NCBI GenBank assembly: GCA_031459855.1
Contig: JAVKHP010000001.1
Span: 124,001 to 188,000, forward strand
Direction: 5' to 3'
DNA length: 64,000 nucleotides
Source of the DNA: Armatimonadota bacterium
GTDB lineage: Bacteria; Sysuimicrobiota; Sysuimicrobiia; Sysuimicrobiales; Humicultoraceae
Below, piece after piece: positions 7,753 through 33,755 of the stretch. Under the pieces are notes generated by a model that had not been told where the DNA came from, made no database searches, and was given only the letters and a program-made list of their open reading frames with translations. The position numbers were made by a program, and so were the translations under genes. Each line of letters begins with the position of its first letter. Position 1 is the stretch's first letter.

Positions 7753-8904
7753 TCAGGCGGCGCACCAGTGCGATGCCAGGTGCGCCAGCACGTCGGCGCA
7801 GGTCACCACCGACGGCACGTCCACCCACTCGACGGCGGCGTGGGCGCCCGCACCGCCCGGCCCGAACATCACCGTGGGGATGCCCGCGGCGCCCAGCAGC
7901 GCGGCATCGAACCACGGGTGCTCGCCCACCAGCCGCGGCGACCGGCCGCACACCGCCCGCACGCTGTCGGCCAGGGCGCGTACCACCGGCGCCTCGGGCG
8001 ATACCTCGAAGGACGGCCGGCTCATGACGAGCTCGACGCGCGCCTGGAGCCCGGGCGAGCGCTGCTGCGCCTCGGACACGGCGGCCTCCAGTTCGGCGAG
8101 GACGTCCGCGTCCTGCTCGCCGGGCAGCAGACGGCGTTCCACCTCCAGGACGCAGCGGTCGGGGTACGTGCTCCACCCGACCCCGCCCGCAATGGTCGAC
8201 GCGTGCAGCGAGGGCCGGCCGAGCAGCGGATGCGTCCGCTGCGGGAGCACCTCGCGCTCCAGGCGATCCAGCGCCACCAGCACGTGGCCCATCCGCGTGA
8301 TGGCGTCGTCGCCGGCATCGTACCGGCTGCCGTGCGCGGCGCGGCCGGCGGTCTCCACCCGGGCCCAGAGGAATCCCTTGTGCGCGATGCACACCTCCAG
8401 CGCCGTGGGCTCGGTGATCACGGCGGCGTCTGCGCGTTCGCGCCGGATCAGGTCGAGAGCGCCCAGGCTCGCGTGCTCCTCGTCGACCACGAACGCCGCC
8501 ACCAGCTCTCCGGCGGGGAGGCCCGCGGCCGCCACCACCCGCATGGCCTCCACGATGGCGGCCACGCCGCCCTTCATGTCGTACGCGCCGCGGCCGTAGA
8601 GGCGGTCGCCCTCCAGGCGGGCCGAGAACGGCTCGGCCATGCCCGTGGTCGCCACGGTGTCGGTGTGTCCGCACAGCAGCAGCCGCCGTCCGGGCCGCGC
8701 ACCGGCCAGGCGGGCGACCACGTTGGGGCGCCCCGGCGCGACCTCGTCGAGGCGCACCTCCAGGCCCGCCGCGCGGCATTCCGCTGCGAGCAGCGTGGCC
8801 ACCGCGCCCTCGCCGGCACCTCCTGGCGCCAGCCCGGGGTTGACCGAGTCGGTGGCCACCAGGGCCCGCAACAGACCCACGATGCGCGCGCGGTCGGCAG
8901 GCAT
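7753..8904 (-). CDS. M20 family metallopeptidase (ArgE/DapE/CPG2 type)
   Basis: A 383-residue di-zinc hydrolase. Visible ligands and motifs are LLCGHTDTV, GRGAYDMKGG with the bridging Asp, VDEEHASLG with the catalytic Glu, and a C-terminal GPGGAGAHAAVEWV segment carrying the last His. The family cleaves N-acyl amino acids or small peptides; the substrate cannot be told from sequence. The ATG at 8904 overlaps the stop of the MoaD-like gene (TGATG), so the two are translationally coupled. The surrounding minus-strand order (Asp-box protein, MoaD-like protein, peptidase) has overlaps at each junction and looks like one expression unit. Confidence 0.88.
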   Translation of the reverse strand: MPADRARIVGLLRALVATDSVNPGLAPGGAGEGAVATLLAAECRAAGLEVRLDEVAPGRPNVVARLAGARPGRRLLLCGHTDTVATTGMAEPFSARLEGDRLYGRGAYDMKGGVAAIVEAMRVVAAAGLPAGELVAAFVVDEEHASLGALDLIRRERADAAVITEPTALEVCIAHKGFLWARVETAGRAAHGSRYDAGDDAITRMGHVLVALDRLEREVLPQRTHPLLGRPSLHASTIAGGVGWSTYPDRCVLEVERRLLPGEQDADVLAELEAAVSEAQQRSPGLQARVELVMSRPSFEVSPEAPVVRALADSVRAVCGRSPRLVGEHPWFDAALLGAAGIPTVMFGPGGAGAHAAVEWVDVPSVVTCADVLAHLASHWCAA

Positions 8905-25090: not shown

Positions 25091-26380
25091 TCAGGACGAC
25101 GGGGGCGCCGCGTTGGCCGCCGACGGCTGCGTGCGCCGCAGGGCCCGTGCGCGGTCCAGGGCGGCCGTGGCGGCCGCCAGCAGGGTCTCCGGGTCGGTGC
25201 CGGCCTCCGGTGCGGTGGCCACCGCGCCCTGCAGGCTGACGAGGATGCGACGGGAGCCGGCCGGGAGCGGCGTGGCGCCCGCCAGGGCCACGAGCCGCTG
25301 CAGGGCGGCTTCCGCGGCCGGACGATCGGTGCGGGGCAGCAGGGCTGCGAAGTCGTCGCCCCCGATGCGGAACAGCAGGTCGCCCGGCCGTACCGCGCCG
25401 TCCAGCAGGCGGGCCAGCTGCTGCAGCACGGCGTCACCCACCAGGTGGCCGTGGGTCTCGTTGATCTGCCGGAACTGCACGATGTCAAGCAGCAGGACGC
25501 TGAACGGCGTGTTGGCGCGCGCCTCGCGCCGGAACTCCTCCTCGAGCCGCAGGTGGAACTGCCGGCGGTTGTACAGCCCCGTCAGGGGGTCGGCCACGGC
25601 CAGACGCTCCACCGCCACCATGGCGTCGTCGAGCCGGCGCTCGAGGTCGGCGATCTTCCGCTGCGCCGCCCGCGCGGTGGCCACACCCCACGCAGCGACA
25701 CCGACCAGGAGCCAGACCGCGCTGCCCAGGGCAAGGCCCATCGCCTCCGTCTCGGTCGCCTGCGCGAGCGCGGCCACCAGCACCCCGCCGGGCACCATGG
25801 CCGCAGGCGCGAGCAGCGCGTCGATCCCGACCGGCGGCCGCACGACGGGCCGCCGGACCGGCGCAGCCCGCCGCATCGCCGCCGCGACGGCCGCCCACAC
25901 CACGGTGTAGACCGCACCGCCCAGGGCCACGGTCCACGCGCTGAACGCGTCGGCACCCGCGGGGGGCGTCACGGCGCCCGCGCCGCCCAGCGCGAGGACC
26001 TCCTGGCCCAGCGCGGCACCGATCCTGGTCGGCGCGCGCCGCTGGCGCACGCCGTCGACCACCAGACCGGGCACGAGCACCAGGAGGGCCGCAGGCCAGC
26101 CATAGCGGAACAGCACGCCCAGCGCCAGCCCGCCAAGCGGGGTGACCCCGATCCCCGACGGGAGCGCGATGCGCAACAGCGGCGTCACCGCCGACGCCAC
26201 TCCCAGCGCGATCCAGCCCGCGGCGGACACGGCAGGCCGCGCGGTCGCCGCCAGGACCAGCAACACCACACCGACCACCGCCAGCGCCACCCCCAGCGGG
26301 CCCACCGCCCCCGCCGCCCCGGTCGGCCCGGTCGTCCCGTGCGCGCGCGCCGGTGGGGCGGCGGGCTCAGACGTTCCCAT
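25091..26380 (-). CDS. Membrane-bound GGDEF protein (diguanylate cyclase type)
   Basis: A 429-residue protein. The N-terminal ~230 residues are hydrophobic with about eight membrane segments, followed by a short coiled linker (AAQRKIADLERRLDDAMVAVERL). The GGDEF domain begins at DPLTGLYNRRQF. The active-site motif is GGDDF, with the usual Glu replaced by Asp. An RxxD product-inhibition site (RPGD) lies exactly five residues upstream of it. Intact diguanylate cyclases make cyclic di-GMP; whether GGDDF is active here is open. The ATG lies inside the 3' end of the M20 gene (14-base overlap) and has no clear ribosome-binding site. Confidence 0.85.
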   Translation of the reverse strand: MGTSEPAAPPARAHGTTGPTGAAGAVGPLGVALAVVGVVLLVLAATARPAVSAAGWIALGVASAVTPLLRIALPSGIGVTPLGGLALGVLFRYGWPAALLVLVPGLVVDGVRQRRAPTRIGAALGQEVLALGGAGAVTPPAGADAFSAWTVALGGAVYTVVWAAVAAAMRRAAPVRRPVVRPPVGIDALLAPAAMVPGGVLVAALAQATETEAMGLALGSAVWLLVGVAAWGVATARAAQRKIADLERRLDDAMVAVERLAVADPLTGLYNRRQFHLRLEEEFRREARANTPFSVLLLDIVQFRQINETHGHLVGDAVLQQLARLLDGAVRPGDLLFRIGGDDFAALLPRTDRPAAEAALQRLVALAGATPLPAGSRRILVSLQGAVATAPEAGTDPETLLAAATAALDRARALRRTQPSAANAAPPSS

Positions 26381-27752
26381 AGTGGTGGAAGAACCGGATG
26401 GTGGCCTCGATGCCCCGCGTGAAGTTGCGCAGGGCGAACTTCTCGTTGGGCGCGTGCAGGTTGTCGTCGGGAAGGCCGAAGCCCATCAACACCGCGGGCA
26501 CCTGCAGGGTCCGCACGAACGCCCCCACCACGGGCACGCTCCCGCCCTCCCGCACGTAGACCGGCGGACGGCCGAACGTCTCCTCCAACGCACGGGCCGC
26601 GGCCCGTGCGGCCGGCGCATCGGGCGACGTCACCACCGGGGGCGTCGACGCGAGGTGGCGCACCTCCACGCGTACGCCGGGCGGCGCCTGGCGCTGCACG
26701 AACCGCGCGAAGCGCCGGAAGATGCGCCCGGGCTCCTGGTCGGGCACCAGGCGCATGGAGACCTTGGCCACCGCCCGGGCGGGAATCACGGTCTTCATGC
26801 CCTCGGCGGTGAAGCCCCCGGCGATCCCGTGCACGTCCAACGTGGGCCGCACCCACAGCCGCTCGAGCACCGGCACCCCGGCCTCGCCGGGCGCTACGTC
26901 GGTGCCCAGGGTCGCGAGGAAGGCCGCCTCGTCGAACGGCAGCCTGGCCCACGCCTCGCGCTCGGCGGGGGCGGGCTCCTGCACGCGCCGGTAGAACCCC
27001 GGCACGCGGATGCGACCCCGGCGGTCCTTGAGGGCGGCCACGATCTGCGCCGCCGCGCCCACCGCGTTGGGCGCCGCGCCGCCGAACTGGCCCGAGTGCA
27101 GGTCGCGCTGCGCGCCCCGCACCTCGATCTCGGTGTAGAGCAACCCCCGCAGCCCGGTGACCAGCGTGGGCAGATCGGGCGCAAACAGCGCGCCGTCGCT
27201 CACGAGCGCCGCGTCGCAGGCCAGGCGCCGGCGCCGCCGCGGCACGTACGTCGCCAGCGTGGGGCTGCCGATCTCCTCCTCGCCTTCCAGGAGGACCTTC
27301 AGGTTGACCGGCAGCCTGCCCGCCGTGCGCAGGATGGCTTCGACCGCCTTGAGGTGGACGAACAGCTGTCCCTTGTCGTCGGACGCGCCCCGCGCGTAGA
27401 GGACGTCGCCCTCCACCACCGGGTCGAAGGGCGGTGTGCGCCACAGCTCGAGCGGGTCCGGCGGCTGGACGTCGAAGTGCCCGTAGCACAGCACCGTGGG
27501 CCGCCCCGGCGCCCCCATCCACTCGGCCAGCACCAGCGGGTGGCGGGTGCCCGCCTCCACCCGTGCGCGCAGCCCCAGAGCCTCCAGGTGGGCGGCCAGC
27601 CAGTGCGCGGCGCGTGCGACGTCCGCCGCGTGCGCCGGTGCCGTGCTGACGCTGGGGATCCGCAGCAGCTCCTGCAGCTCGTGCAGAAACCGCGCCTGGT
27701 GCTCGCGCGCGTAGGCCAGGGCCGCGTCCACGCTCGCCACAATTCGACGCAC
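26367..27752 (-). CDS. M20 family dipeptidase (PepV/CNDP type)
   Basis: A 461-residue dinuclear zinc peptidase. Motifs: LCYGHFDVQPPDPLELW with the first ligand His, YARGASDDKGQ with the bridging Asp, LLEGEEEIGSPTL with the catalytic Glu pair, and a lid domain followed by GGSVPVVGAF near the end. The domain order and length match cytosolic dipeptidases such as CNDP-like or 'dipeptidase' M20 proteins, which hydrolyse a wide range of dipeptides. The GTG at 27752 was chosen because CAGGAGAG lies seven bases upstream. Its position near Dpp importer genes fits use of imported dipeptides. Confidence 0.9.
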   Translation of the reverse strand: MRRIVASVDAALAYAREHQARFLHELQELLRIPSVSTAPAHAADVARAAHWLAAHLEALGLRARVEAGTRHPLVLAEWMGAPGRPTVLCYGHFDVQPPDPLELWRTPPFDPVVEGDVLYARGASDDKGQLFVHLKAVEAILRTAGRLPVNLKVLLEGEEEIGSPTLATYVPRRRRRLACDAALVSDGALFAPDLPTLVTGLRGLLYTEIEVRGAQRDLHSGQFGGAAPNAVGAAAQIVAALKDRRGRIRVPGFYRRVQEPAPAEREAWARLPFDEAAFLATLGTDVAPGEAGVPVLERLWVRPTLDVHGIAGGFTAEGMKTVIPARAVAKVSMRLVPDQEPGRIFRRFARFVQRQAPPGVRVEVRHLASTPPVVTSPDAPAARAAARALEETFGRPPVYVREGGSVPVVGAFVRTLQVPAVLMGFGLPDDNLHAPNEKFALRNFTRGIEATIRFFHHYGNV

Positions 27753-27826
27753 GGGGCAGCTCTCCTGGAGCCGCCGCAGCCCGTCCGGTCGACTGTTTGC
27801 TGTGCCGGTCGCGTCCAGGCGTTCCC

Positions 27827-27936
27827 GGGATGGTGCGCGGCCTCGGCGGCCCACCCGCGCCGCCCCGGCATAGACTGCGAGGGCGGCGGCCTGTTTCGAG
27901 GGATGGTGCGCGGCCCCGGCGGCCTACCCGCGCCGC
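27827..27936. repeat. 37-bp direct repeat, 73-bp period
   Basis: The 37-bp sequence at 27827-27863 recurs at 27900-27936 with two mismatches (shared core GGGATGGTGCGCGGCC). The second copy contains the stop codon and last codons of minus-strand yceI; the first copy lies just beyond, in the gap before the M20 gene. Confidence 0.85.
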
Positions 27937-28652: not shown

Positions 28653-29513
28653 ATGGTCCTGCGCCTGTGGCTCGCCCGCCTGGCCGAGGGGCCGACGCGC
28701 GCGCGTGTGGCGCGCTGGCTGCTCGCCGCGTGCGCCGCCGGCTTCGTGCTCACGCTGGGCGCGATGCTGCTGGCCGGCGTCGGGCTCGATCGCTGGCTCT
28801 TCGCCCTGATCGTCTGGAGCGCGCTGATCTTCATCCCGCTGCGCATCACGCTGGACGCCTCCGGACCGCTGGGTGCCCGCGCCCTGGCCACCCTGCGACG
28901 CCGCCTCGCCGGTGACCCGGCGCGCTACGACCGCCCGGAGTGGCTGCCGGTGGTGGTCGGCGAGCTGTTCGCCCGTCGCGTGACGATGCCGCGCATCACC
29001 ACGCCGGCGCACGCCCGGAAAGCGCATGACGCCGCCACCGCGGTCCTGCGCGGCCTCGTGGGCCGGGCCGATGCGCACACCCGGTTGGGCGACGCCATCC
29101 GCCTGACGGTGGCCGCCGCCGCGGCGGAGGCGATGCAGGTGAGCGCGCTGGCCAGCGGGCCCGCGGCCCAGCCCATTCAGGCGCGCTGGGACGGTGCGCG
29201 CGCGCTCGGCACGCTGGCGGCGCTGATCGACCTGCTGGCCGCCGCGTTCGCCGACCGCTGGGACCGGCCGCCTGTCGTGCCCGACCTGGCCGGCCGGCCG
29301 CTGCGCGACTTCTTGGATGCCGCGCTGGACTACTGCGACGAGGCCGCCCTGCAGGTGGACGCGCTCCCGTGGACCGAGCCGCCGCTGCTGCCGCTGCTTG
29401 CGCCTGCGGCTGTCGACGAGGTCCGCACCGCCTGGCGCGCGTTCGTGGACGCACAGCCGCCGGCGACTGCGGCTCTGCAGGCGTTCGTGCGCGCCGTCTT
29501 GCCCCCCGCGTAG
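28653..29513 (+). CDS. Hypothetical membrane-anchored protein
   Basis: A 286-residue protein that I do not recognise. Two hydrophobic helices lie near the N-terminus (WLLAACAAGFVLTLGAMLLAG and WLFALIVWSALIFIPL), and the remaining ~220 residues are alpha-helical, Ala/Leu-rich and cytoplasmic or periplasmic without motifs. The frame is open, reads in the plus direction between two minus-strand genes, and has normal codon usage, so it is probably real. No clear ribosome-binding site precedes the ATG. It is convergent with the M20D gene, ending one base before that gene's stop. Confidence 0.6.
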   Translation: MVLRLWLARLAEGPTRARVARWLLAACAAGFVLTLGAMLLAGVGLDRWLFALIVWSALIFIPLRITLDASGPLGARALATLRRRLAGDPARYDRPEWLPVVVGELFARRVTMPRITTPAHARKAHDAATAVLRGLVGRADAHTRLGDAIRLTVAAAAAEAMQVSALASGPAAQPIQARWDGARALGTLAALIDLLAAAFADRWDRPPVVPDLAGRPLRDFLDAALDYCDEAALQVDALPWTEPPLLPLLAPAAVDEVRTAWRAFVDAQPPATAALQAFVRAVLPPA

Positions 29514-30698
29514 TCAGCTGGCGTCGGCCGCCAGCCGCACCGCTGCCCCGCCCAGCACCTTGGCCGCCACCGGCAGGGCGTCTTCGTCGAAGTCGAAGCG
29601 GTTGGTGTGGTGCCGGCCGTCCAGCTCCCGCGCCCGGTTGCTGGACCCCACCACGAAGTAGCAGCCGGGCGCCCGCTCGAGGAAGTACGCCATGTCGTCG
29701 CTGCCGGTCGTGGGCCGCATCTCCTCGACGCGGCCGGGTCCCACGACCTCCTCGGCCACGCGCCGCACGACGTCGGTCACCTGGGGATCGTTGCGGACGA
29801 CGGGGCAGCCCAGCCGTGTGGTCACCGCCGCCCGCGCCCGGAGGGCGCCCGCCACCCCTGCGGCGATCTCCCGAATGCGCCGCAGCGTCTGCTCGCGGAT
29901 CTCCGGGGTGAAGGTGCGCACGGTGCCGCGCAGGTCCACCCGGTCGGGAATGATGTTGAAGGCCGTGCCGCCCTGGATCGTCCCGAACGACACCACGGCG
30001 GCGTCCAGCGGCGGCGTCTCCCGGCTGACGATGGCCTGCAGCGCCACGACGACGTGCGCGGCGGCCAGGATGGGGTCGGCGGCCTGGTGGGGAATGCCGC
30101 CGTGGCCTCCCCGGCCCTCCACGCTGAGCTCCAGCTCGTCCGCTGCGGCGAACACCGGCCCGGCGCGCACCCCGACGACGCCAGCCGGCAGGTCGTTCCA
30201 CAGGTGCAGGCCGACGACGGCGTCCACCTTCGGGTCGTCCATCACGCCGGCCTCGATCATGGGCCGGGCGCCGGCGACGATCTCCTCGGCAGGCTGGAAC
30301 GCGAAGACGTAGGTGCCCGGCAAGCTCTCCCGCCGCCGGGCGAGCAGCTCCGCGAGAACCACCGCGACCGCGGTGTGCCCGTCGTGCCCTCAGGCGTGCA
30401 TCACCCCGGGGCGCTGGCTGCGGTAGGGCACCGCGTTGGCCTCGTCGATGGGCAGCGCGTCGATATCGGCCCGCACCAGCACCGTCCGCCCCGGCCGCCC
30501 GCCCCGCAGCACCCCGGCGACACCGGTGGTCGCGAGCCCGGTCCGCACGGCCAGGCCCGCGGCCCTGAGTCGCTCGGCCACGATGCCGCTGGTACGCACC
30601 TCCTGGAAGCCCAGCTCCGGATGGGCATGCAGATCCCTGCGCAGCGCCACCAGCTCATCGCGCGCCGCGTCGATATCCGCGAACAAATGTTCGACCAA
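29514..30698 (-). CDS. M20D amidohydrolase with an in-frame TGA at the metal-ligand Cys (candidate selenoprotein)
   Basis: Reading through one TGA (30392-30390) gives a 394-residue protein of normal M20D length. It starts at a TTG at 30698 with GGAGGGGAGGGG eight bases upstream; an ATG at 30725 is an alternative. Family features are LRRDLHAHPELGFQE, ADIDALPIDE, the zinc motif MHA-x-GHDGHT (x is the TGA, residue 103), FQPAEEI (Glu 138/139), GLHLWND (His 165) and a late HTNRFD (His about 364). In M20D enzymes x is a Cys that binds the metal. Both halves are otherwise intact and in one frame. TGA is the ordinary stop of many genes here, so general recoding is excluded. Readings: selenocysteine insertion, supported by a SECIS-like hairpin, or a single nonsense mutation (TGC or TGT to TGA) giving a pseudogene. 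Substrates in the family are N-acyl amino acids such as hippurate. Confidence 0.8.
30360..30389 (-). promoter_or_regulatory. Candidate SECIS element after the in-frame TGA
   Basis: On the mRNA, nine bases after the TGA, GGGC (30380-30377), a bulged A, then CACCGC (30375-30370), the loop GGUC (30369-30366), GCGGUG (30365-30360) and GUUC (30359-30356) can form a stem of about ten pairs, two of them G-U. The apical loop begins 20 bases after the TGA. From memory, the E. coli fdhF SECIS has the same GGUC loop about 18 bases after its TGA and also a single bulged base. GC-rich DNA makes hairpins by chance, so this is support, not proof. Confidence 0.55.
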
Positions 30699-30795
30699 CG
30701 TCGGTGCCCCTCCCCTCCGCGCCATCTGCCGTGCAACTCACAGGACGAACAAGCCAAGCCACGCCGGCCGCGTTCCCACTCCCCCATGGAGATGT

Positions 30796-30941: not shown

Positions 30942-31922
30942 ATGGCGCTGTGGCTGCAGGAAGGCGACGTCGAACGACTGCTGGCGATGGACGACGTGAT
31001 CGCCGCGGTCGAGCAGGGGTTCCGCTGGCTGGGAGAGGGGATGGCGGTGAACCAGCCGCGCACGCGCGCGGTCACCCCGCAGGGCGTGCTCCACGTGATG
31101 CACGCCGCGGTCCCGCCGCTGGGCGTGGCCGGCCTCAAGGCCTACGCGACGACGCCCGGTGGCGCGCGCTTCGTGGCGCTGCTCTACCGGCTGGAGGACG
31201 GTGAGCTGCTGCTGGCGGCTGAGGCCGACCGGCTCGGGCAGCTGCGCACGGGCGCGGCGAGCGGTGTCGCCACGAAGGTCCTGGCCCGTCCCGACGCGGG
31301 CACGCTCGGCGTCATCGGGAGCGGGTGGCAGGCCCGCACACAGGTGCAGGCGATCGCGCGGGTACGGCCCATCGCGCTGGTCAAGGTGTACAGCCGCACG
31401 CCCGAGCGCCGCGAAGCGTTCGCCGCAGAGCTCGTGGACGCCCTCGGCGTCGAGGCGGTCGCCGTGGAGCACGCGCAGGAGGCGGTCACCGACGTCGACG
31501 TCGTCGTGACGATCACCTCTGCGCGCGATCCGGTGCTCCACGGTGCCTGGCTCGCGCCGGGCGTCCACATCAACGCCGCCGGCGCCAACGCGGCCACGCG
31601 CGCGGAACTCGACGCCGAGGCCGTGCGGCGCAGCCAGCTCATTGCGGTCGACGCGCTGGATCAGGCCCGGGTGGAATGCGGCGACCTCCTGGCCGCAGAG
31701 CGTGCCGGCGATCCCGTGTGGTCGCGCGTCGTGGAGCTGGGGGCGATCGTGGCCGGCCGCCAGCCGGGACGGACGGCCCCCGAGCAGATCACGCTCTTCG
31801 AGTCCCAGGGCATCGCCACCGAGGACGTGGTGACCCTGGAACTGCTGTACCGACGTGCGGTCGCCGCCGGGGTGGGGCGGGAGCTCCCCACCTCGCCCGC
31901 GGCCGTCCGCGTCCGCCGGTAG
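30942..31922 (+). CDS. Ornithine cyclodeaminase / mu-crystallin family protein
   Basis: A 326-residue NAD(P)-binding enzyme of the OCD/mu-crystallin family. It shows GLKAYATTPGG with the catalytic-site Lys, the EADRLGQLRTGAASGVATKVLA block, the Rossmann dinucleotide loop GVIGSGWQARTQ, and PGVHINAAGAN. Members include ornithine cyclodeaminase, alanine dehydrogenase, ketimine reductase and delta-pyrroline-carboxylate reductases, so the exact reaction is uncertain. Divergent from the M20D amidohydrolase gene across a shared regulatory gap; an amidase that releases an amino acid and an enzyme that deaminates it would make a sensible pair, which is inference. Confidence 0.88.
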   Translation: MALWLQEGDVERLLAMDDVIAAVEQGFRWLGEGMAVNQPRTRAVTPQGVLHVMHAAVPPLGVAGLKAYATTPGGARFVALLYRLEDGELLLAAEADRLGQLRTGAASGVATKVLARPDAGTLGVIGSGWQARTQVQAIARVRPIALVKVYSRTPERREAFAAELVDALGVEAVAVEHAQEAVTDVDVVVTITSARDPVLHGAWLAPGVHINAAGANAATRAELDAEAVRRSQLIAVDALDQARVECGDLLAAERAGDPVWSRVVELGAIVAGRQPGRTAPEQITLFESQGIATEDVVTLELLYRRAVAAGVGRELPTSPAAVRVRR

Positions 31923-32270: not shown

Positions 32271-33755
32271 GTGGCCGTACGCGTGCTCGTAGCCGATCCG
32301 TTGACGCACCGGTGCGACGCGCTGGCGGTGGGAGTGTTCGCGGCACCGGGACGGCTCGAAGGGCTGGCCGCCAAGATCGACCAGGCCCTGGGCGGCTCGC
32401 TGGTGCGCATCCTCACCGAAGAGCGGTTCACGGGCGAGGTCGGCAAGGTGCTGGTCGTGCACACGCACGGCCGCCTGCCGGCCGCGCGCATCGTGGTGGT
32501 GGGGCTGGGCGACCGTGACGCTTTCTCCCAGGATCGGCTGCGCCTGGCGGCCGGCGCTGCGGCACGCGCCGTGCAGGAACGACGGCTGGGCCGGCTGGCC
32601 TACCCGCCCGTGCAGTACAGGGACTGGGAACCTGCGACCATCGCCGCCCTGCGGACCGAGGGCGCGTTGCTCGCCACCTACCGCTTCGGCAAGTACCAGA
32701 AGGAGCGCCCCACCGAGGTGCACATCGACCTGCTGGCTGCCAACCGCGCGGAGGCCACGGCCGTGGAGGCGGGCCGCCGCCGCGGCCAGATCGTGGCCGA
32801 GGCGGTGAACTACGCGCGCGACCTGGTCAACGAGCCGCCCAACGTGCTCACCCCCGACGCGCTGGCCGCAGAGGCGCGGCGCATCGCCAGGAACACCAGG
32901 CTCAAGGTGCAGGTCTGGGGCCCGCAGGACCTCAAGAAGCGCGGCATGGAGCTCACGCTCGCCGTGGGCGGCGCCAGCGCCCACACGCCCCGCTTCATCC
33001 AGATCGAGTACGCGCCGCCCAAGCCCCGCCGCACCGTGGGCCTGGCCGGGAAGGGTGTGACCTTCGACACCGGCGGCGTCGACCTGAAGACCGCCGAGGG
33101 CATGGCCACCATGAAGTCCGACATGGCCGGGGCCGCCGCGGTGCTGGCCACCATGCAGGCGTTGCCGCTGCTGCAGGCGCCCGTCCGGGTGCTCGCGGGC
33201 ATCGCCGCCGTGGAGAACGCGGTGGGCAGCCGCGCGTACCGGCCCGGCGACATCCTGCGGGGCCTCAACGGCACCACCGTGGAGATCGCCAACACCGACG
33301 CCGAGGGCCGCCTGATCCTGGCCGATGTCGTCGCCCACCTGGCCGCGGCCGCACCCGACGAGCTCATCGACCTGGCCACGCTGACCGGGTCCGCATCGAT
33401 CGCGCTGGGGCCGTACGCCGCCGCGCTGATGGCCAGCGACCAGGTCCTCGCCGACCGCCTGCTGGCGGCGGCCGCGCGGGCAGGCGAGCGCCTGGTGCCC
33501 TTCCCCCTCTACGACGAGTACCGCGAGGCCATCAAGGGCGACGTGGCCGACATCAAGAACTCAGCGGGTCGGCTGGGCGGCGCGCAGAAGGGAGCGGTCT
33601 TCATCCGCGAGTTCGCCGGCCGGGTGCCCTGGGCCCACCTGGACATCGCGCCCGTGGCCTTCCTCGACCGCGAGGGCACCAACGCCATCCAGCCCAAGGG
33701 CGCCTCGGGGTTCGGCGTGCGCACGCTGCTGGAGTACCTGACAGCGCGCGCCTAG
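32271..33755 (+). CDS. pepA: Leucyl aminopeptidase (M17 family, PepA)
   Basis: A 494-residue M17 cytosol aminopeptidase, which releases N-terminal residues from peptides using two metal ions. The C-terminal catalytic domain has KGVTFDTGGVDLK with the metal-binding Lys/Asp, MKSDMAGAAAV, and the signature NTDAEGRLILAD, with the bicarbonate-site Arg. The N-terminal ~180 residues form the regulatory macro-like domain. GTG start at 32271, with AGGGGGGAG six bases upstream. It adds to the strong peptide-use theme of the window. Convergent with the MBL-fold gene; the 252-base gap after it shows nothing I can name. Confidence 0.95.
   Translation: MAVRVLVADPLTHRCDALAVGVFAAPGRLEGLAAKIDQALGGSLVRILTEERFTGEVGKVLVVHTHGRLPAARIVVVGLGDRDAFSQDRLRLAAGAAARAVQERRLGRLAYPPVQYRDWEPATIAALRTEGALLATYRFGKYQKERPTEVHIDLLAANRAEATAVEAGRRRGQIVAEAVNYARDLVNEPPNVLTPDALAAEARRIARNTRLKVQVWGPQDLKKRGMELTLAVGGASAHTPRFIQIEYAPPKPRRTVGLAGKGVTFDTGGVDLKTAEGMATMKSDMAGAAAVLATMQALPLLQAPVRVLAGIAAVENAVGSRAYRPGDILRGLNGTTVEIANTDAEGRLILADVVAHLAAAAPDELIDLATLTGSASIALGPYAAALMASDQVLADRLLAAAARAGERLVPFPLYDEYREAIKGDVADIKNSAGRLGGAQKGAVFIREFAGRVPWAHLDIAPVAFLDREGTNAIQPKGASGFGVRTLLEYLTARA

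Follow-up and report, generated by a model that had tools for sequence, protein, structure and literature searches.

An M20D gene with one internal TGA, probably read through

The window, a 64,000 nt stretch of a 3.19 Mb genome (97.7% complete), carries on its minus strand an M20D amidohydrolase gene of 394 codons plus stop, which runs from a TTG at 30698 to the terminal TGA stop at 29514–29516 and would be read through one internal TGA. The frame that contains it (30725 to 29514, minus strand) is open apart from this single TGA at 30392–30390. TTG 30698 is the likely start, given that a Shine–Dalgarno-like sequence, GGAGGGGAGGGG, can be read directly just upstream (30707–30718, minus strand; ~9–20 nt from the TTG) and that the starts of relatives, which use GTG or ATG, coincide with this position; an alternative ATG lies upstream at 30725 on the same strand. 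An earlier note on this DNA had proposed an intact 394-codon M20D gene at 29514–30698, with a ribosome-binding site, one in-frame TGA at the Cys of the HACGHDGH motif and no other lesions, and our reading of the frame agrees on every point, the gene being on the minus strand.

The protein scores 371.9 bits against the NCBIfam amidohydrolase subfamily profile TIGR01891 (cut-off 153.75) and 147.5 bits against Pfam PF01546 (Peptidase_M20; cut-off 24.6), and M20_dimer is also matched. The TGA lies in the context VMHA-U-GHDGHTA and is residue 103 counted from the TTG, or 112 counted from the upstream ATG. The closest solved proteins are Bacillus subtilis YxeP (1ysj, 281 bits), Arabidopsis ILL2 (1xmb) and the M20 peptidase 4ewt; CsAga (6slf), the M20D aminoacylase of C. 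striatum, likewise aligns, and the Cys/Sec residue of the window protein is aligned with a Cys in all four. In CsAga a Cys bridges two zinc ions (PMC11511702). We infer from the alignment that the TGA-encoded residue is the counterpart of this bridging Cys, which would place selenium in a dinuclear metal centre of a hydrolase; the metal-ligand role that the earlier note gave to this residue is thereby supported by alignment to a solved enzyme. The other presumed ligands, assigned by homology (the H of GHD, the E of QPAEE, the H of GLH and a C-terminal H), are invariant in all TGA-containing and sampled Cys proteins.

The candidate selenoprotein gene is flanked by a second M20 peptidase (26367–27854, minus strand), by a gene of the ornithine cyclodeaminase/mu-crystallin family (30942–31922, plus strand) and by an M17 leucyl aminopeptidase (32271–33755, plus strand), a neighbourhood that would fit peptide or amino-acid scavenging without naming a substrate. 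Among the neighbourhoods of the TGA genes the M17 aminopeptidase alone recurs, and it does so only in the close relative L024. A 286-codon frame that converges on the M20D gene (28653–29513, plus strand) has no Pfam match. The sole tRNA found in the window (7891–7974, minus strand) is reported as an 84 nt tRNA-Ala with anticodon CGC, and both its length and its anticodon look unusual.

Recurrence of TGA at a single codon

The in-frame TGA (30390–30392, minus strand), the putative selenocysteine codon, occurs in 11 other genomes, while Cys homologues have TGC or TGT. A scan for the motif HA-TGA-GHD[G/A]H over 84,980 species genomes gave 34 loci, 24 of which were set aside because they are not M20D; the other 10 are M20D genes in which the corresponding codon is TGA, from Armatimonadetes (L024, 70% identical to the window protein), Chloroflexi (L017), Methylomirabilota (L027 and L030), Planctomycetota (L015, L023 and L041), Deltaproteobacteria (L026), Poribacteria (L020) and Clostridia (L038, 34% identity). 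An eleventh, L071, came from a protein search of Methylomirabilota. Nine of the 10 genes found by the scan are intact on either side of the TGA, and L020 carries a second stop, a TAG located 18 codons upstream of the TGA (ALPI*EAN; ~2605–2662), which may be an error of sequencing, a mark of decay or another stop that is recoded. TGC is therefore not the rule in all close relatives, as the 70% identical gene (L024/L055) has TGA; five other genomes in the window's family have TGC at this codon. In viral contigs only distant relatives, of no help here, were found.

A nonsense mutation in a gene that has recently become a pseudogene is, in our view, a very unlikely source of the TGA. The codon is one base from TGC or TGT, the window genome has a single M20D match at E<=1e-40, so that loss of the gene is conceivable, and the additional TAG of L020 could be taken as a sign of decay; yet relatives of 45–55% identity also have TGA at this position, and none of the homologues examined has one at any other internal codon. 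In particular, protein searches made without the TGA motif (that of the window organism's phylum covering 43 genomes from one order) returned 55 homologues, eight of which contain an internal stop, in every case a TGA at this one codon, even though each gene has 48–89 codons that a single base change would turn into a stop. Stops in L050, L053 and L099 (two TAG and one TGA) were considered as recoding and rejected, being terminal stops overrun by the alignment. Further, among the pairs of TGA genes with unsaturated synonymous sites, dN/dS downstream of the TGA is ~0.16–0.33, which indicates that the 3' part is under protein-level (purifying) selection; the metal-ligand residues are intact, and the genes for decoding selenocysteine are present.

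In a tree of 60 proteins the TGA genes do not form one clade: eight changes are counted, of which at least six are forced by well-supported branches, and the tree thus rejects one common origin for the Sec form, although the branches of L038, L017 and L020 are long and some placements are unsure. Within the window's own family the codon is TGA in two genera and TGC in two others, and the Cys-bearing genomes also have selB. From this analysis the Sec/Cys pattern appears to be exchange of the kind found in accepted selenoprotein families.

SECIS-like hairpins and the decoding genes

The TGA is followed by a SECIS-like stem–loop (30356–30380, minus strand) with 10 bp, one bulged A and an apical GGUC loop (30366–30369, minus strand) that begins 20 nt after the UGA, as the earlier note had described; its sequence is GGGC-A-CACCGC[GGUC]GCGGUGGUUC and its energy –14.7 kcal/mol. 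Taken alone, in this GC-rich gene, the hairpin is not significant against dinucleotide shuffles (z –1.3) or against synonymous-codon shuffles (p 0.21), and its weight comes from comparison with the TGA and Cys relatives. We applied the published bSECIS model (loop of 3–9 nt with an early G, stem of 4–16 bp, 16–37 nt after the UGA, <=–7.5 kcal/mol; PMC13188914) to the 60 nt from the codon in 12 TGA and 48 Cys genes. The window hairpin conforms to it (GGUC loop, 6 bp upper stem, 20 nt, –9.3 kcal/mol), and conforming hairpins were found in 9 of the 12 TGA genes versus 4 of the 48 Cys homologues. Mann–Whitney comparison of the two groups gave p 4e-6 on energies and 3e-5 on z-scores from synonymous shuffles, values that are optimistic because common descent keeps the sequences from being independent samples.

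The loop starts 20–24 nt after the UGA in 11 of the 12 TGA genes. It is GGUC in the window gene and L024, GGUCU in L015, L023, L041 and L020, GGUCCUG in L026, CGUG in L017, and GGGGU or CGGGGUC in the TGA genes of Methylomirabilota. Other lineages therefore keep TGA at the exact codon together with a GGU-type apical loop, which is what the earlier note had proposed to look for. None of the three checks from that note that we ran, on the decoding genes, on TGA-bearing homologues and on the SECIS geometry, went against its reading. The closest genus with Cys retains the stem, but its loop is GAUC, not GGUC. Two-sided changes (C-G to G-C or G-U) are seen at two of the eight stem pairs in the eight sequences that share one register, and the compensatory-change score, which is suggestive and derives from these two pairs and eight sequences only, was reached by 9 of 500 shuffles. 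Between the window gene and L024 all six hairpin codons are identical, whereas half of the comparable codons elsewhere differ (p 0.017). No hairpin satisfying the bSECIS model lies downstream of the TGA in L038. In that locus (TGA near 2108, minus strand) there is only a weak hairpin with a GCUU loop; the L038 genome has selB beside tRNA-Sec and a second M20D gene of the Cys type.

Every component sought for selenocysteine decoding, namely selA, selB, the selC tRNA and selD, was found in the window genome. The selB match scores 348.9 bits, over the curated cut-off; selA, a 472-codon frame of the expected sequence, was identified by reading of that sequence and by its position adjoining selB rather than by profile; tRNA-Sec (selC; anticodon TCA, 66 bits) lies just downstream of selA/selB; and selD scores 388.5 bits and has its own in-frame TGA. 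The selD gene (L083; G000:C1:1149867–1150790, minus strand) contains this one in-frame TGA within CAGUASKLPP and is of the Sec type. The selD TGA, being followed by a 7 bp SECIS-like hairpin with a CGUGU loop at 32 nt, serves as a positive control, from within this genome, for the recoding of UGA. In the 11 other genomes with TGA-containing M20D genes selB was matched throughout, in 10 over the cut-off, the match in G008 being a fragment that begins at a contig end. tRNA-Sec was found over the cut-off in 9 of the 10 such genomes tested; in the L017 genome, where selB is present, none was found over the cut-off. Since selB also occurs in most genomes of the same phyla with Cys relatives, finding it is a test of consistency: the gene is required, but it does not tell the two groups apart.

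Variant tRNA-Cys species with a UCA anticodon occur in nature, and all the non-TGA homologues have Cys at this position, as would be expected if a variant tRNA read the UGA as Cys or another standard residue. We regard this as highly unlikely, considering that all parts of the Sec machinery are encoded in the window genome, among them a tRNA-Sec with anticodon TCA and a Sec-type selD, and that SECIS-like hairpins are enriched in the TGA genes over the Cys genes. An assembly or base-calling error at the TGA may come to mind, as the relatives with TGA are mostly metagenome-assembled genomes; however, independent assemblies from different phyla and different studies share both the TGA and matching SECIS-like hairpins, and an error is extremely unlikely. 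Programmed termination with internal re-initiation, for instance at the GTG at 30362, whose 282-codon frame follows the TGA, would yield two polypeptides and is barely credible, as the HAUGHDGH metal motif would be divided between them, a motif that runs on unbroken to either side of the codon in all the TGA genes.

Proposed role of selenium and relation to known systems

Taken together, the sequence comparisons argue strongly that the UGA of the window M20D gene is decoded as selenocysteine and that a new selenoprotein family is represented here. This reading is very likely real because several bacterial phyla that are unrelated to one another show the same substitution. We suggest that a SelB–Sec-tRNA(Sec) complex would be held by the hairpin 20 nt downstream of the UGA and that Sec would be inserted at the UGA of the HAUGHDGH motif. 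If Sec is so decoded, selenium very likely bridges the metals, a selenolate taking the place of the thiolate between two catalytic divalent metals in a geometry taken from the homologues. The bridged metals would activate water for cleavage of the amide bond of an N-acyl-amino acid or a peptide, and the product would be a selenium-containing M20D amidohydrolase of the aminoacylase or carboxypeptidase type. Known M20D substrates are N-acyl-amino acids, auxin conjugates and Met-X dipeptides (PMC11511702), and three M20 enzymes of B. subtilis, ScmP, YhaA and YtnL, remove the acetyl group from N-acetylcysteine, with highest activity with cobalt and stimulation by manganese (PMC12757645). The advantage of selenium may lie in a tuned metal affinity or Lewis acidity, or in resistance to irreversible ligand oxidation. 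Our broader proposal, which we hold to be probable, is of a natural metallohydrolase in which Sec, in place of Cys, bridges both catalytic metals. Several phyla would have arrived at it on repeated occasions by exchange between Cys and Sec, and selenium would serve there to tune hydrolytic metal chemistry rather than the transfer of electrons or thiols.

Where a known selenoprotein has been assigned a role, that role is nearly always in redox chemistry. A recurrent Sec at the metal-bridging position of a hydrolase, if real, would be a natural experiment on what a metal ligand gains from selenium when no redox chemistry is involved, and natural Cys counterparts, 70% identical and from the same family, could be compared with it directly. 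Moreover, genomes with the Sec trait would carry a family that standard gene calling truncates at the UGA.

With the Cys M20D enzymes (YxeP, ILL2, CsAga, hippuricase and CpsA) the window protein has in common the fold, the dimerization domain, the metal-ligand residues and HAxGHDGH, scoring 260–281 bits to 1xmb/1ysj and 379.2 bits to the CpsA model, the last being under the equivalog cut-off of 500. It differs from them in the TGA at the metal-bridging Cys and in the SECIS-like hairpin that follows. The YgeY family is linked to the selenium cofactor trait and is not known to contain Sec. As the selenium metabolism-linked hydrolase YgeY (NF009555) belongs to the M20 clan and is selenium-linked by name, it resembles the window protein in these respects, but the window protein scores only 23.9 bits against this model (cut-off 321). 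None of the June 2026 NCBIfam models that match the window protein describes a Sec form. A paper on Campylobacter avium reports that Sec genes are absent, so it is not pertinent here.

With the known bacterial selenoproteins the window gene shares a UGA and a bSECIS in the published geometry, selABCD and the existence of Cys homologues. In agreement with the view in the earlier note that M20 is not an established selenoprotein family, no M20, peptidase or amidohydrolase family is among the 119 prokaryotic selenoprotein families and subfamilies of a 2026 review, in whose text the words peptidase, hydrolase and amidase are absent (PMC13188914); within the open-access literature, these terms are likewise missing from a deep-learning survey of 2025 and from a review of 2022. 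The families listed are mostly redox-related, unlike the hydrolytic M20D enzymes. The earlier note had further held that selenium on a catalytic metal would differ from the redox role that selenoproteins are known to have in bacteria. Metal coordination as such is already known, given that formate dehydrogenase has selenium as a ligand of Mo/W, and NiFeSe hydrogenase as a ligand of Ni (PMC13188914), much as we propose for the window enzyme, and this part of the claim falls. What stands is the kind of centre: formate dehydrogenase and NiFeSe hydrogenase are redox centres, whereas the window enzyme would have a hydrolytic dinuclear site of the Zn/Mn/Co type, and the novelty would thus be Sec on a hydrolytic, non-redox dinuclear centre.
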